DNA from: Bacteroidota bacterium
Lineage (GTDB): Bacteria > Bacteroidota > Rhodothermia > Rhodothermales > Bin80
Assembly: GCA_026709335.1 (NCBI GenBank)
Contig: JAPOTE010000122.1
Span: forward strand, 1 to 64,000
Direction: 5' to 3'
Length of the DNA stretch: 64,000 nucleotides
In this document: piece after piece, positions 1-47,238 of the stretch
How the letters are laid out: each line of letters starts with the position of its first letter
Numbering within the stretch: the first letter of the stretch is position 1
Notes under the pieces: model-generated
Database searches by the model: none
What the model saw: the letters and a program-made list of their open reading frames with translations, nothing else
What the model was told of the DNA's origin: nothing
Made by a program: the position numbers and the translations under genes

Positions 1-100
1 TAAATGACAGAACGGTCAAACAGACAGTTCCAATCAGAGATAAAACTACGCGCATAGCGCGACGGCTAAAAAGAGATAGAAAAAATCCCATATTATTCAT
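1..100 (-). CDS. N-terminus of exported cysteine-rich peptide precursor (copy 1, cut by window edge)
   Basis: The first 33 codons of a gene running off the left edge on the minus strand. The start ATG (98-100) overlaps the stop of the preceding gene as ATGA. The encoded residues are a basic stretch followed by a hydrophobic helix, that is, a signal peptide. The DNA is the exact reverse complement of 43009-43108, where the complete gene encodes a 94-residue precursor with six cysteines in the mature part. This copy is therefore probably a second gene of the same kind, but its mature part lies outside the window and cannot be checked. Function unknown. Confidence 0.6.
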   Translation of the reverse strand, partial: MNNMGFFLSLFSRRAMRVVLSLIGTVCLTVLSF

Positions 101-333
101 GACGAATGTTCTATTGGCTTTAACAAGTGCATTTGAGCGGGGGGATTCATACGAAAATCCCGTATAGCATAATCATTTATACGGATAAATTGGGGTTGAT
201 CATTTTCAATGTGGACGCAGATCCAATGTGTGGAACAAAACGTCAAGATTGAAGGGGATTCCATTTTTAAGTAGATAAGAGCCTCGGATTGGAATTGAAT
301 GTTCGAGATTTTTTGTAACGTGGCCAGTTCGTC
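1..333. repeat. Inverted repeat copy A (matches 42776-43108)
   Basis: Reading the reverse complement of 1-333 against 42776-43108, I find one mismatch (position 322, C on the minus strand here and T in the other copy). Position x pairs with 43109-x. The match runs to the first base of the window, so the repeat probably continues to the left. The near-identity indicates a recent duplication or ongoing gene conversion. Confidence 0.9.
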
Positions 334-366
334 TGTACGTTGACATGCATGCAATATTCGTGCCAT
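97..366 (-). CDS. Hypothetical protein preceding the peptide gene (copy 1)
   Basis: An 89-residue reading frame whose last 78 residues are identical to the protein at 42773-43012. I do not recognise the family. No signal peptide or membrane helix is visible; the protein contains two cysteines in an FCSTHWIC stretch. In this copy the ATG used by the 42.8-kb copy is missing because about 20 bases upstream are deleted. The frame instead opens at an ATG inside a conserved block (339-405), and whether this start is used is unclear. It overlaps the next gene by four bases, as in the other copy, so the two genes are probably translated together. Confidence 0.45.
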   Translation of the reverse strand: MARILHACQRTDELATLQKISNIQFQSEALIYLKMESPSILTFCSTHWICVHIENDQPQFIRINDYAIRDFRMNPPAQMHLLKPIEHSS

Positions 367-405
367 GCCCTGTCCAGTAGGTTCATCAACAGTTCTGCGG
401 CTGGG
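339..405 (-). repeat. Conserved 67-95 bp block, copy 1
   Basis: This minus-strand stretch resembles 42664-42758 (+) and 46966-47064 (-). The shared core encodes NLLDRAWHEYC in one frame. Between the copies many differences fall in third codon positions of that frame, which suggests descent from a coding sequence. The frame is broken by a stop a few codons upstream here. It sits directly before a gene start in each of the three places. Confidence 0.6.
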
Positions 406-42371: not shown

Positions 42372-42663
42372 GAGAAATCATCACAAGATTCAGAGAAACT
42401 GAACGGGCACATTTAATACCTTCCGCTATTGGCATGCTTGGATTTCTAACGAACCAAGAAATCACAACGCAGAATACTTTATCTACCCCCTTAATCAGGA
42501 GATTTTAAATCCCTCATTTTGATCTATTATCCTATTACTTGACTTATGCAGAGTTATGAAAAAATTCTCCAGAACCTCCCTCGCTTTACAGCACGTTTCA
42601 TGATGTCGAGGGCCATCGTTCAACTCACACGGAGTCACTGGATCCCGTTGATATATTGGTCGA
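42372..42663. other. Spacer before the peptide/propeller locus
   Basis: 292 bases after the aminotransferase. Open frames through 42495-42749 on both strands are unconvincing and contain no known motif. It leads into the conserved block at 42664 and may carry the promoter of the following operon. Confidence 0.3.
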
Positions 42664-42758
42664 GTCCTGCAAACAGTCGTTCCCCCAGCCTCAGAACTGT
42701 TGATGAACCTACTGGACAGAGCATGGCACGAATATTGCAGGCATGTCAACAGATTAAT
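42664..42758 (+). repeat. Conserved 67-95 bp block, copy 2
   Basis: Begins CCTGCAAACAGTC and contains a frame encoding NLLDRAWHEYCRH. It resembles 46966-47064 (-) over its whole length and 339-405 (-) over its right two thirds. In the NLLDRAWHEYC frame the copies differ mainly at synonymous positions. The frame is blocked by a stop at 42649, so no full gene remains. It ends a few bases before the ribosome binding site of the next gene. Confidence 0.65.
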
Positions 42759-42772
42759 GAAGGATTCCTTCT

Positions 42773-43012
42773 ATGGACGAACTGGCTACGTTACAAAAAA
42801 TCTCGAACATTCAATTCCAATCCGAGGCTCTTATCTACTTAAAAATGGAATCCCCTTCAATCTTGACGTTTTGTTCCACACATTGGATCTGCGTCCACAT
42901 TGAAAATGATCAACCCCAATTTATCCGTATAAATGATTATGCTATACGGGATTTTCGTATGAATCCCCCCGCTCAAATGCACTTGTTAAAGCCAATAGAA
43001 CATTCGTCATGA
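42773..43012 (+). CDS. Hypothetical protein, first gene of the peptide/propeller operon
   Basis: 79 residues, with an AAGGA ribosome site eight bases before the ATG. Not recognised. It is soluble and has an FCSTHWICVHIENDQPQFIRIN stretch that could be beta-rich; the C-terminus is Pro/Met-rich. Its stop overlaps the start of the exported peptide gene as ATGA. Except for its first codon it is identical, residue for residue, to the protein encoded at 97-366, on the other strand 42 kb away. A leader-binding or processing role for the peptides is possible but purely a guess. Confidence 0.6.
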   Translation: MDELATLQKISNIQFQSEALIYLKMESPSILTFCSTHWICVHIENDQPQFIRINDYAIRDFRMNPPAQMHLLKPIEHSS

Positions 43013-43108
43013 ATAATATGGGATTTTTTCTATCTCTTTTTAGCCGTCGCGCTATGCGCGTAGTTTTATCTCTGATTGGAACTGTCTGTTTGACCGTTCT
43101 GTCATTTA
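42776..43108. repeat. Inverted repeat copy B (matches 1-333)
   Basis: 333 bases with one mismatch to the reverse complement of 1-333. It covers nearly all of the 42773 gene and the first 33 codons of the 43009 gene. On the left, similarity continues after a 20-base indel into the conserved block. The right limit cannot be seen because the partner leaves the window. Confidence 0.9.
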
Positions 43109-43293
43109 CACTGAATCACGAGCCAGGACTTGCGGCTGCTGGCTTAAAATGTGACGGAGATGTAATTTGCACAGGCCTCTGTACCACCACGTGCGATCCT
43201 TTTGCGCTTCCAGTACTCTGCGGGCAATTTGTTCCAGCGTCAGGTCCTGCATACTGGTTCGGATTACATAGCCCTCCATGTAAAATGAGATGA
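43009..43293 (+). CDS. Exported cysteine-rich small protein
   Basis: A 94-residue precursor. Residues 15-40 form a signal peptide (basic RRAMR, hydrophobic helix, then GLAAAG). The predicted mature part, about 52 residues, has six cysteines (KCDGD, ICTGLC, TTTC, VLCGQ, PPCKM), an even number consistent with three disulfides. No lipobox. No family recognised; size and context (next to another Cys-rich secreted peptide and a beta-propeller lipoprotein) recall the NVEALA-peptide/6-bladed-propeller loci of Bacteroides, but I see no NVEALA leader. Start overlaps the preceding stop. Confidence 0.65.
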   Translation: MNNMGFFLSLFSRRAMRVVLSLIGTVCLTVLSFTLNHEPGLAAAGLKCDGDVICTGLCTTTCDPFALPVLCGQFVPASGPAYWFGLHSPPCKMR

Positions 43294-43399
43294 AAAAACG
43301 CACCCTTGTTCAGGGGGCATTTTACAGCAGGCACTATATAATTCCAATTTATTTCTTACACTTGAATGTCCTTCACCCATTAAACAATCTCTTGCTGTC

Positions 43400-43645
43400 A
43401 TGAAAAAACTCTTTAACTTTATCTGTATATGCGTAATATTCATTCTCGGAAGCTTAGTCTCTGCGCATGTGTCCGATTCCGCAACGAAATTAGAGTGTGA
43501 TAATGGGACTTGCAAAACAGAGCTCAATACGGACGATGACGGCTGGGAAATGTCTATTGATTGTGGGGAGTATGGCTCGTGGTCAGGAAGCGGGGATGGA
43601 CCATGGATAGGTCGTTTATGTGGGGTTTCTGTTAACGGAGGATAG
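43400..43645 (+). CDS. Second exported cysteine-containing small protein
   Basis: An 81-residue precursor with a clear signal peptide (MKKLFNFICICVIFILGSLVSA). The mature part of about 59 residues is acidic and Gly/Ser/Trp-rich. It has four cysteines (LECDNGTC, IDCGEYG, RLCGV) and a GSWSGSGDGPWIG stretch. No family recognised. It lies 107 bases after the six-cysteine peptide and 104 before the propeller lipoprotein on the same strand. Likely a secreted, disulfide-bonded peptide of the same system. Confidence 0.65.
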   Translation: MKKLFNFICICVIFILGSLVSAHVSDSATKLECDNGTCKTELNTDDDGWEMSIDCGEYGSWSGSGDGPWIGRLCGVSVNGG

Positions 43646-43748
43646 ATCAACTGTTTTTCTCCTACGCTCATTCTTGTTCGTGTAGGTCGGGGATCGTTCA
43701 AGTAGTGTTCCCGGATAATAGGGGAAGGGTGTTGGTGCTGGATCTATT

Positions 43749-44834
43749 ATGAAATTAATTTCTCCTGCTTGTTTGAGATCCGCGGCGTTATCTTTTCTAT
43801 TTCTTCTCTTTGTAGCTTGTGGAGAGAGAGAGTCGGCAATGCTTACCCGATTTGAAAACTCTCCGACGGTTGACAGCTTGTTAACTGTTGCTCCACACTT
43901 TATTGTTAACACTGATATAGAAGCTGAAGAATGGGTTGCTAATGCTGCACTGGGATTAGTAAAGGATTCTTTGATTCTCGGACGCCCTAATGGTATCATT
44001 GCTATTGCAGACAGCTTTTATATCTCAGATAGCCAAGCTACTGGCATTTTCGTGGTGGACCGCAACGGGCATCTTGTGCGGAAAATTGGTAAGCGTGGAA
44101 AAGGTCCAGGAGAATTCTTAAGTTTGAGGGGGCTTGAATACAATGGAACTCATGTATTTGTAAAAGATAGAGGGCGTGTCCAAATTTTCAAAGAAAGTAT
44201 GGATTATGCAAGTTCCTTTTCTGTTTCTGGCATGGGAACTCTAGGAGTTTCACCTGGATATATGCTTTTGGAATGCCCCGAAGTTAACAAATGGATCATT
44301 TGTGCTCGTAGCACTGTCCCTCCTTTTCATTGGTTTGAATTCAAACAATTACTTCCTGTTTTGGACCTTCCTGACCGTACCGGGGAAAACAGTTACATTG
44401 TATCCATTTCTCCCGAAGGAAATCGCGTTGCAGTAGGATACAAAGGCCTTCCTTATATATTTGTTTATGACGATCAGTTTACACACTTAAAGACAATCCG
44501 GTTTGAGGGAAAAGATGTTCGTGATTGGACGCCTACTGGCATTCCTGGTGGAGCACCTCCAGAAGTCCTTAATCCTGGGACGTTCAGCTTCATTGAATGG
44601 GTTGAATTTATAGATTCTCGTTACTTGATTGCAAGCGTACACAGAACAGACAACTACATTATCGATGTGTCTGAAAATGAGCATCAACTCGTTAGAAAAT
44701 TTGTTCTGCGCCCCACCAATAATCCAGAAGAACGCAAAAATATCCCTGCTAGAGATTTTCTATTTCATAGAGATCGTTTATACGTTGCTTCACCATGGGC
44801 AGAATATGTATATGGCTATAGTTTTGACTTATGA
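43749..44834 (+). CDS. Six-bladed beta-propeller lipoprotein
   Basis: 361 residues. The signal peptide ends in LFVACGE (lipobox Cys about 25), so it is lipid-anchored. Blade-like repeats include SFYISDSQATGIFVVDRNGHLVRKIGKRGKGPGEF (about 95-128), a 6-bladed propeller signature close to NHL/BF3164-type domains, then TGENSYIVSISPEGNRVAVGY and SRYLIASVHRTDNYIIDVS. Function unknown; such proteins in Bacteroides often lie beside small secreted peptides, as here. Last of the four-gene run. The region after it is mobile-element debris. Confidence 0.82.
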   Translation: MKLISPACLRSAALSFLFLLFVACGERESAMLTRFENSPTVDSLLTVAPHFIVNTDIEAEEWVANAALGLVKDSLILGRPNGIIAIADSFYISDSQATGIFVVDRNGHLVRKIGKRGKGPGEFLSLRGLEYNGTHVFVKDRGRVQIFKESMDYASSFSVSGMGTLGVSPGYMLLECPEVNKWIICARSTVPPFHWFEFKQLLPVLDLPDRTGENSYIVSISPEGNRVAVGYKGLPYIFVYDDQFTHLKTIRFEGKDVRDWTPTGIPGGAPPEVLNPGTFSFIEWVEFIDSRYLIASVHRTDNYIIDVSENEHQLVRKFVLRPTNNPEERKNIPARDFLFHRDRLYVASPWAEYVYGYSFDL

Positions 44835-45154: not shown

Positions 45155-46277
45155 CTACGCCGCACGTCGTTTGCGTTCGCGCTCCTGCGCCCGAATGATC
45201 GCTCTCAGTCGGTGGAGATTTGCTCCCAGTACCGAGAGTGCAACGGCCCGTGCAAATGCTTCCTGACTCACCTCTCGCACCACATCCATCCTCCGATGAT
45301 TGAGATTGTTCATGCAGGACTCCACTGCCGAATGCCCTGTACGAGCTTCTTTGTATGCCGGCATGTTCTGACGCGCACACTCCGCCTTGTCGAGATATCC
45401 CTTCTTTGACATGCCGGTGACCTCTAACAAATGATCTAGCTCCTGTCGCACTTCGGGGCTGTAAAAGGACAGATCAAACGAACAGGTGAACTTGAATTCC
45501 GGGAACTGCGCCTGCACCTGTTTCATCATCTCGACCGCAATGTCTTTATCGGTCCATAGAACCCCATGCCCCAGGACAAATTGATACTCATCCTCTACCA
45601 CGGCAACCGGAACCCCCAACTCCTGCAGGATCCCTGCCTTGCCTTATACAATCCAGCGCGTGAAGGACTTAAAAATGGAAAAGATTTTCTCTTGATGGGA
45701 AATCTGTTCTCTGTGAAGAATGCGACGAACGATTTGATCTGAAAAGAGCTCTCCATAGTCGAGATACAACGAAATCTCGTGCGTGGCGGTGCGGAGCTAT
45801 TCAAGCAGATCGGCATCTGTTTCCAAACTTTTCTGCGCGCCTTGCCTTGCCGCGATCTCCGCTTGCATCTGTTCCATCCAGCCCAGGATTCGAACGGCTT
45901 TCTTACGGATCTTCTCGCAACGATCCAGATACCGGTGAACTCGCAGCTTCTTGTACTTTTTCCAGCCTTTCCTCGCTCGCTGAAACGCCCGATACACCTT
46001 TTGGGATACACTCGCATGTTGACGCCAGCCTGCATACGCGGATCAAACAGCGCGTGGAATCCCACAGCAGGTTCAAATCTGTGGGATAGTGCACATCGGT
46101 TTTAACCACCTTTGAGTCGCTCCGACACTTCAGTGTTCCTTGCGTTTTCCCAACCATCCTGTGGCCGAGCTTCACAATCAACACTAATCTATCTTGGCTT
46201 TCATGGAAATACTCTAACATAGCTGGAAGAGTATCCGCGACACCATGATCATCAGTTGGTTTGACCAAAAAAGTCAC
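45155..46277 (-). pseudogene. DDE transposase C-terminal part (ISNCY-like), frameshifted and interrupted
   Basis: Read on the minus strand, the parts in order are VKLGHRMVGKTQG...VVKTDVHYPTDLNLLWDSTR (about 46230-46050), KKYKKLRVHRYLDRCEKIRKKA (about 45970) and EKIFSIFKSFTRWI-stop-GKAGILQELGV (about 45700-45620). The last is PVAVVEDEYQFVLGH ... GHSAVESCMNNL ... LGANLHRLRAIIR, to the stop at 45155. This order matches transposases annotated as ISNCY (the DVHYPTD and HSAVE motifs are diagnostic). At least one frameshift and two stops break it, so it is dead. The N-terminal third is missing here; a possible N-terminal piece lies at 47239. Confidence 0.85.
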
Positions 46278-46940: not shown

Positions 46941-46965
46941 AATTACAGGAAAGCGAAATGGAATA

Positions 46966-47064
46966 CTTCACTAGTCTGTTGATGTGCGGGCAATATTCGT
47001 GCCATGCCCTGTCCAGCAGGTTGGTCAATAGCTCTGAGGTCAGGATTTTTGACTGTTTGCAGGA
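46966..47064 (-). repeat. Conserved 67-95 bp block, copy 3
   Basis: On the minus strand it reads CCTGCAAACAGTC, then a 13-base variable part, then the NLLDRAWHEYCPH-coding core, aligned with 42664-42758. Most core differences are silent or conservative in that frame. It directly precedes the propeller fragment, as copy 2 precedes the peptide operon. The 170 bases from 47065 to 47238 show nothing further. Confidence 0.6.
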
Positions 47065-47238
47065 TCCATCAATCCAAGATGGATAGATCGGAAGTTACCC
47101 CCATTCTTCTGAATTTTGGGGTATTTCGGTAGGGTTTTAACCCATTTAACACTCAATGCTATGCGTATTCCAATAGATTTTCCCACTTATGCACTTGAGT
47201 AAGAGATAAATATCATCAACCTTTTAGCGCACGGGAAT

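Follow-up and report, generated by a model that had tools for sequence, protein, structure and literature searches.

In Bacteroides, peptides of the NVEALA family (PF14055) adjoin propeller lipoproteins of the BF3164/TolB-like or DUF5128 type, and small cysteine-containing peptides beside propeller lipoproteins are, to our knowledge, an unexplained feature of this group. No paper naming NVEALA, and none naming DUF5128, was found in the literature searched. The methylamine dehydrogenase cluster brings together a propeller (MauB), a cysteine-rich protein (MauA) and a thioredoxin-like protein (MauD). The BtuG protein of Bacteroides is a lipid-anchored surface propeller that takes vitamin B12 as its ligand and docks on BtuB (PMC6143338, PMC10404256).

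The locus described here lies in a 64,000-nucleotide stretch of DNA (the window) with which contig C1 of a draft genome of 2.8 Mb begins. The nearest named records are mostly Rhodothermales / Rhodothermaceae metagenome bins, and the names of several of them suggest an origin in marine sponges. Comparisons between genomes used stretches around the loci. A first-pass annotation had proposed a run of four genes: a small protein, two exported cysteine-containing peptides and a propeller lipoprotein. All four reading frames are present at the coordinates given below, with a 4-base overlap of ORF1 and ORF2, six cysteines after the signal in ORF2 and four in ORF3, and the lipobox-bearing product of the last gene is borne out as a propeller by a PF17170 match and by its fold model. 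The run itself does not hold together, as ORF1 is repeat DNA and ORF2 a displaced relic; the conserved unit is ORF3 and the propeller only, at 43400-44834. The features are as follows.

43400..43645, + strand: type A secreted Cys mini-protein ORF3, 81 aa (family A4, pairing, AlphaFold2)
43749..44834, + strand: type A six-bladed propeller lipoprotein, 361 aa (PF17170, pTM, 4raa, clade A in the tree)
43009..43293, + strand: displaced, probably truncated B1-type peptide ORF2, 94 aa (identity to the C32 peptide, B1 profile)
42773..43012, + strand: ORF1, an open frame within a dispersed repeat, judged non-coding (repeat copies)
42577..43022, + strand: lineage-specific dispersed repeat preceding the unit, a mosaic built of three or more modules (DNA matches)
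1..405, - strand: repeat copy with ORF1 and codons 1-33 of ORF2, truncated at the contig start
46593..46967, - strand: C-terminal remnant of a further propeller gene (iterated phmmer)

The last of these has no Pfam match of its own and was linked to other propellers of the same genome by iterated phmmer; a repeat fragment (46960-47073) lies just upstream of it. An ORF at 45155-45619 (- strand), also lacking a Pfam match, resembles a C-terminal transposase fragment.

ORF3 begins with a predicted Sec signal of about 22-28 residues, followed by a mature four-cysteine all-beta domain (about residues 29-78). Its AlphaFold2 model, built from seven sequences, shows a compact all-beta mature domain with pLDDT >90 over most of residues 31-75, for which no match was found in the PDB or among viral models at E<=0.001. 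The peptide family to which it belongs, family A (14 sequences in the A4 alignment), occurs throughout the genus and its family as well as in a second family of the same order (G051), and has no Pfam or NCBIfam match. Its members share the motif C-x(2-5)-C, then W-x-[MLV]-x-I-x-C, then G-x-[WY]-x-G-x-x-C, which is retained down to 25-45% identity and also in G051; W49 is the one invariant tryptophan. With one exception the mature family A peptides are acidic, with charges of -3 to -11, and nearly all mature peptides at these loci are acidic. The propeller exceeds the PF17170 gathering cut-off (36.5 vs 22.9 bits, E=4e-9) and is modelled with a pTM of 0.80 as an all-beta propeller; the closest solved fold by E-value is 4raa, BF0058 of Bacteroides fragilis, with NHL propellers next. 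Its lipobox FVAC (residues 21-24) predicts lipidation at Cys24, and most propeller relatives have LTAC, LIAC or a similar lipobox. The propeller has no plasmid match, and a defence-system or phage origin was ruled out, there being no PADLOC or PHROGs match.

The association of family A with its propeller is kept well beyond the window. A profile made of ORF3 and two relatives (A3) gave 15 matches in eight other genomes, 12 of them directly upstream of a propeller of one clade, clade A. With the larger A4 alignment, 15 genomes, the window's own included, gave ten matches that are full-length and free of stops, and each of these is immediately followed on the same strand by a clade A propeller gene. 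The chance of such a placement is about 0.14% per match. At one locus (G012:C61) an intact type A peptide stands upstream of a broken propeller. Other peptide types are tied to other propellers. Type C peptides, with the motif AEEE-x-CENDxC and mostly six cysteines, directly precede a clade C propeller in 16 of 19 matches and frequently overlap the propeller gene, and type B1 and B2 peptides precede clade B propellers. In a tree of 71 propellers, all 22 loci labelled A fall in clade A, all 14 labelled C in clade C and all three labelled B1 in clade B; the peptide-type label changes 13 times over the tree, compared with a mean of 32.9 for shuffled labels, and none of 200 shuffles was as low. 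Distances between type A peptides correlate with those between their propellers (r=0.65 for 14 loci and r=0.79 for nine genus-level loci; 0 of 5000 permutations). Peptides and propellers are thus inherited as matched pairs, which suggests mutual binding, and such two-gene units are numerous in uncultured Rhodothermales. The pairing of an exported cysteine peptide with a propeller lipoprotein, as first proposed for this DNA, is kept in many relatives. Peptides that have no homologues and show no purifying selection, or a propeller that occurs without them in every relative, had been named as grounds for giving the proposal up; neither was found.

Three further loci are of note in this respect. 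One contig binned as Acidimicrobiales (L139, VYDH01000025.1) carries a type A pair with a propeller 53% identical to that of the window, and is probably mis-binned Rhodothermales DNA. In the window's own genome, an 82-aa product with three cysteines after the signal is encoded directly upstream of a propeller-like gene (C18, L064:2551-2946), possibly a further peptide type unlike families A, B and C, and a 106-aa exported ORF with five cysteines lies directly upstream of a propeller of another clade (C117, L086) and may represent a fourth family.

The DNA to the left of the unit is of a different nature. A DNA search of the same genome with 42520-43310 found 26 matching places, 42560-42970 matches 22 places at E<=1e-4, and the repeat is absent from 12 relatives. 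On the left the copies begin at a common point near 42577, and they are built from modules at about 42577-42849, about 42853-42967 and 42967-43022; several contig ends carry a 55-nt module that includes the inverted repeat CCGTATA/TATACGG. ORF1 lies inside this repeat. Its frame is broken or altered in eight of the nine other copies by stops or by indels, most of which are 1 or 5 nt long, and the differences at the three codon positions of the ORF1 stretch, summed over nine copies, are evenly spread (27, 34 and 21), so that ORF1 was ruled out as a gene. The good ribosome site that the first-pass annotation had noted for it carries little weight, because Shine-Dalgarno-like sites are rare in the window, with only five of its 32 long ORFs having one. 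A structured RNA was likewise ruled out, the repeat having no Rfam match, and so was a component of the peptide-propeller system, since the repeat is missing in the 12 relatives and its copies also precede unrelated genes. Copies were frequently seen just upstream of peptide or propeller genes. The duplication of the first two genes reported at the left edge of the window does contain ORF1 again, together with the beginning of ORF2, but is a further copy of the repeat, truncated at the contig start.

ORF2 has its nearest relatives in an eight-cysteine peptide of the same genome (C32, 46% identity) and in peptides of genomes G010 and G011. The profile of this family, B1, covers only residues 4-65 of ORF2, about its first two thirds, and the later cysteines of B1 are missing. 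In C32 and G010 the B1 peptide is followed by a second eight-cysteine peptide and then by a propeller of a clade other than A, while ORF2, alone among B1 peptides, precedes an A propeller. As judged from its sequence and position ORF2 is a displaced and probably truncated relic of family B1; it was ruled out as a regular member of the unit, being B1-like in its N-terminal part only and having a propeller of the wrong clade downstream.

The two genes of the conserved unit differ in their rates of change and loss. Compared over the same locus pairs, dN/dS is 0.74, 0.44 and 0.76 for type A peptides vs 0.17, 0.24 and 0.43 for the partner propellers. A script scored the upstream peptide of 35 clade A propellers as intact in 11 cases, degraded in 14 and absent in 10; by eye, two peptides scored as degraded are intact variants (L168, L191) and one scored as intact is shortened by a TAA codon (L179). 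Propellers with a degraded peptide or none have dN/dS values of 0.18-0.32, and these orphan propellers therefore remain under purifying selection. In genome G007, which is 97% complete, a peptide remnant is all that was found beside two intact clade A propellers, and there too dN/dS is in this range. Propellers also occur in tandem, four in G004:C118 and three, with one intact peptide, in G004:C51, with at most one intact peptide per array. Between two paralogous loci of G002 (L162 and L167) the peptide dS is 0.26 and the propeller dS 0.83, a hint that the peptide may have undergone gene conversion.

The surroundings of the pair depend on its type. Many type C loci also carry a membrane-anchored thioredoxin-fold protein, observed in the window's own genome at C51, C16 and C52 and at loci L202, L203, L209, L210 and L214-L217, which has a VYIGSSTCGFAN motif with one conserved cysteine instead of CxxC and no Pfam or NCBIfam match of note. 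Clade B propellers of the same genome (C32, C120 and C4; L059, L079 and L082) adjoin a thioredoxin-like protein with a CPYC motif, the reading frame of which looks interrupted in C120; a protein of this kind (T2) gave weak thioredoxin matches. In types B and C the thioredoxin-fold gene several times directly follows the propeller. The neighbours of type A loci include no recurrent thioredoxin-like gene, and no recurrent exporter, regulator, receptor-signalling or TonB-type receptor gene adjoins them.

Taken together, secreted peptide and propeller lipoprotein are well supported as a genetic unit, and their co-inheritance may reflect a physical or functional pairing. We propose, with evenly balanced confidence, that ORF3 is a secreted mini-protein ligand and the propeller at 43749 its cognate receptor or binder, lipid-anchored outside a membrane. 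ORF3 would be exported by Sec and its signal removed, two disulfides would staple the resulting all-beta mini-protein of ~50 residues, and the propeller, anchored by its lipid presumably on the outer side of a membrane, would bind its cognate mini-protein. The propeller is most likely a family-specific binder, of the receptor or immunity type, for a fast-evolving mini-protein that may be diffusible or held at the surface. This reading is favoured because the propeller is the constant member of the pair, the peptide is seldom found without it, the two trees are congruent and the peptide evolves faster, although vertical co-inheritance of neighbouring genes alone would also yield congruence. As orphan propellers persist, or work, without a peptide, the propeller may have another ligand. 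Binding may serve in sensing or signalling, in resistance or immunity, or in retention, or may make the mini-protein a subunit. The suggestion of a secreted peptide with a surface receptor or carrier, made when the locus was first annotated, is thus still the best reading of the co-inheritance; its bacteriocin-like part is doubtful, nearly all mature peptides being acidic.

A broader reading, which we put forward tentatively and consider somewhat improbable as a whole, is that these loci form a diversified recognition repertoire in uncultured Rhodothermales, in which three or more unrelated families of secreted disulfide mini-proteins each have their own propeller clade, with many loci per genome and with orphan propellers retained for sensing or resisting the mini-proteins of other cells.

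The alternative that survives best, though we consider it unlikely, is a two-subunit envelope complex. A propeller-based enzyme or ligand-binding assembly would include the mini-protein as a structural or accessory component, and in types B and C the disulfides of the mini-protein would be matured by the thioredoxin-like protein, after the pattern of the Mau cluster. The fixed order of peptide and propeller, the thioredoxin-fold gene at the same type B and C loci and the acidic, folded character of the mini-proteins would all be accounted for in this way. However, the peptide is lost or decayed at more than half of the clade A loci while the propeller is still under selection, and it evolves faster than would be expected of an obligate subunit; moreover type A loci have no recurrent thioredoxin-like gene, and a conserved cofactor pair, whether Trp/Trp or Trp/Cys, is not apparent, with a single tryptophan invariant. 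As far as sequence comparison can tell, an obligate complex would fit the asymmetric loss, the congruence and the peptide rate less well than a cognate binder.

The same asymmetric loss, together with the orphan and tandem propellers (G004:C118, G004:C51), the fast evolution of the peptides and the coexistence of several families in one genome, is what a toxin and its immunity protein could leave behind: the mini-protein would harm neighbours that lack the matching propeller, the lipoprotein would shield the producer and the orphans would be spare immunity genes. This is more doubtful still, as neither a toxin or bacteriocin domain nor a gene for lysis or for a dedicated exporter was seen, PADLOC and Pfam gave no match, and the mature peptides are mostly acidic, unlike cationic membrane-active bacteriocins. 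Searches for a known bacteriocin domain, a double-glycine leader or a dedicated exporter found no Pfam, NCBIfam, PHROGs or PADLOC match, a signal of the Sec type and no recurrent neighbour. That the peptides are functionless by-products, short cysteine-containing ORFs with signal-like starts drifting beside a widespread propeller family, is highly improbable: dN/dS values of 0.44-0.76 in the closest type A pairs are not far below 1 and many copies are broken, but the motif kept at 25-45% identity and in another family (G051) largely refutes such a reading, against which the confident mature fold and the exclusive pairing with one propeller clade also speak.

The layout most like this one is that of the NVEALA loci, where the gene of a small exported cysteine-containing protein also lies just upstream of one for a six-bladed propeller lipoprotein. 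The likeness is one of layout and not of homology, as families A, B and C have neither a PF14055 sequence match nor the NVEALA motif. PF14055 gave no match to the window's peptides at E up to 1, nor to eight relatives and one further peptide of the same genome at E up to 5; no NVEALA peptide was found in the genome, and none of 198 genomes of the phylum had a match over the cut-off. Membership of that family, which the first-pass annotation had brought into play, was ruled out by this profile. The resemblance to the Mau cluster lies in the combination of a small cysteine-rich protein, a propeller and a thioredoxin-fold protein in types B and C. It differs in that no sequence match, cofactor residues, MauE or MauF were found here and type A lacks the thioredoxin gene; a TTQ-forming tryptophan pair is absent from family A, in which only W49 is invariant. 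We know of no small protein partner of BtuG comparable to the peptides described here. BtuG provides a precedent for a lipid-anchored surface propeller that binds a ligand (PMC6143338, PMC10404256) but docks on BtuB, whereas type A loci have no recurrent TonB-type receptor. The PF17170 (DUF5128) lipoproteins, represented by 4raa, share both fold and sequence family with the window's propeller; PF17170 is defined by the propeller alone, and the partner mini-proteins are absent from Pfam and NCBIfam. The explicit set of matched and orphan partners, in which the peptides are small folded proteins that are easy to express, makes the question of binding directly testable, and if binding holds true these loci would constitute a specific secreted-ligand system in uncultured bacteria, for which record names suggest marine sponge hosts. 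A layout like that of Bacteroides also exists outside that group, in a lineage where the peptide families are unrelated and each goes with a propeller clade of its own.
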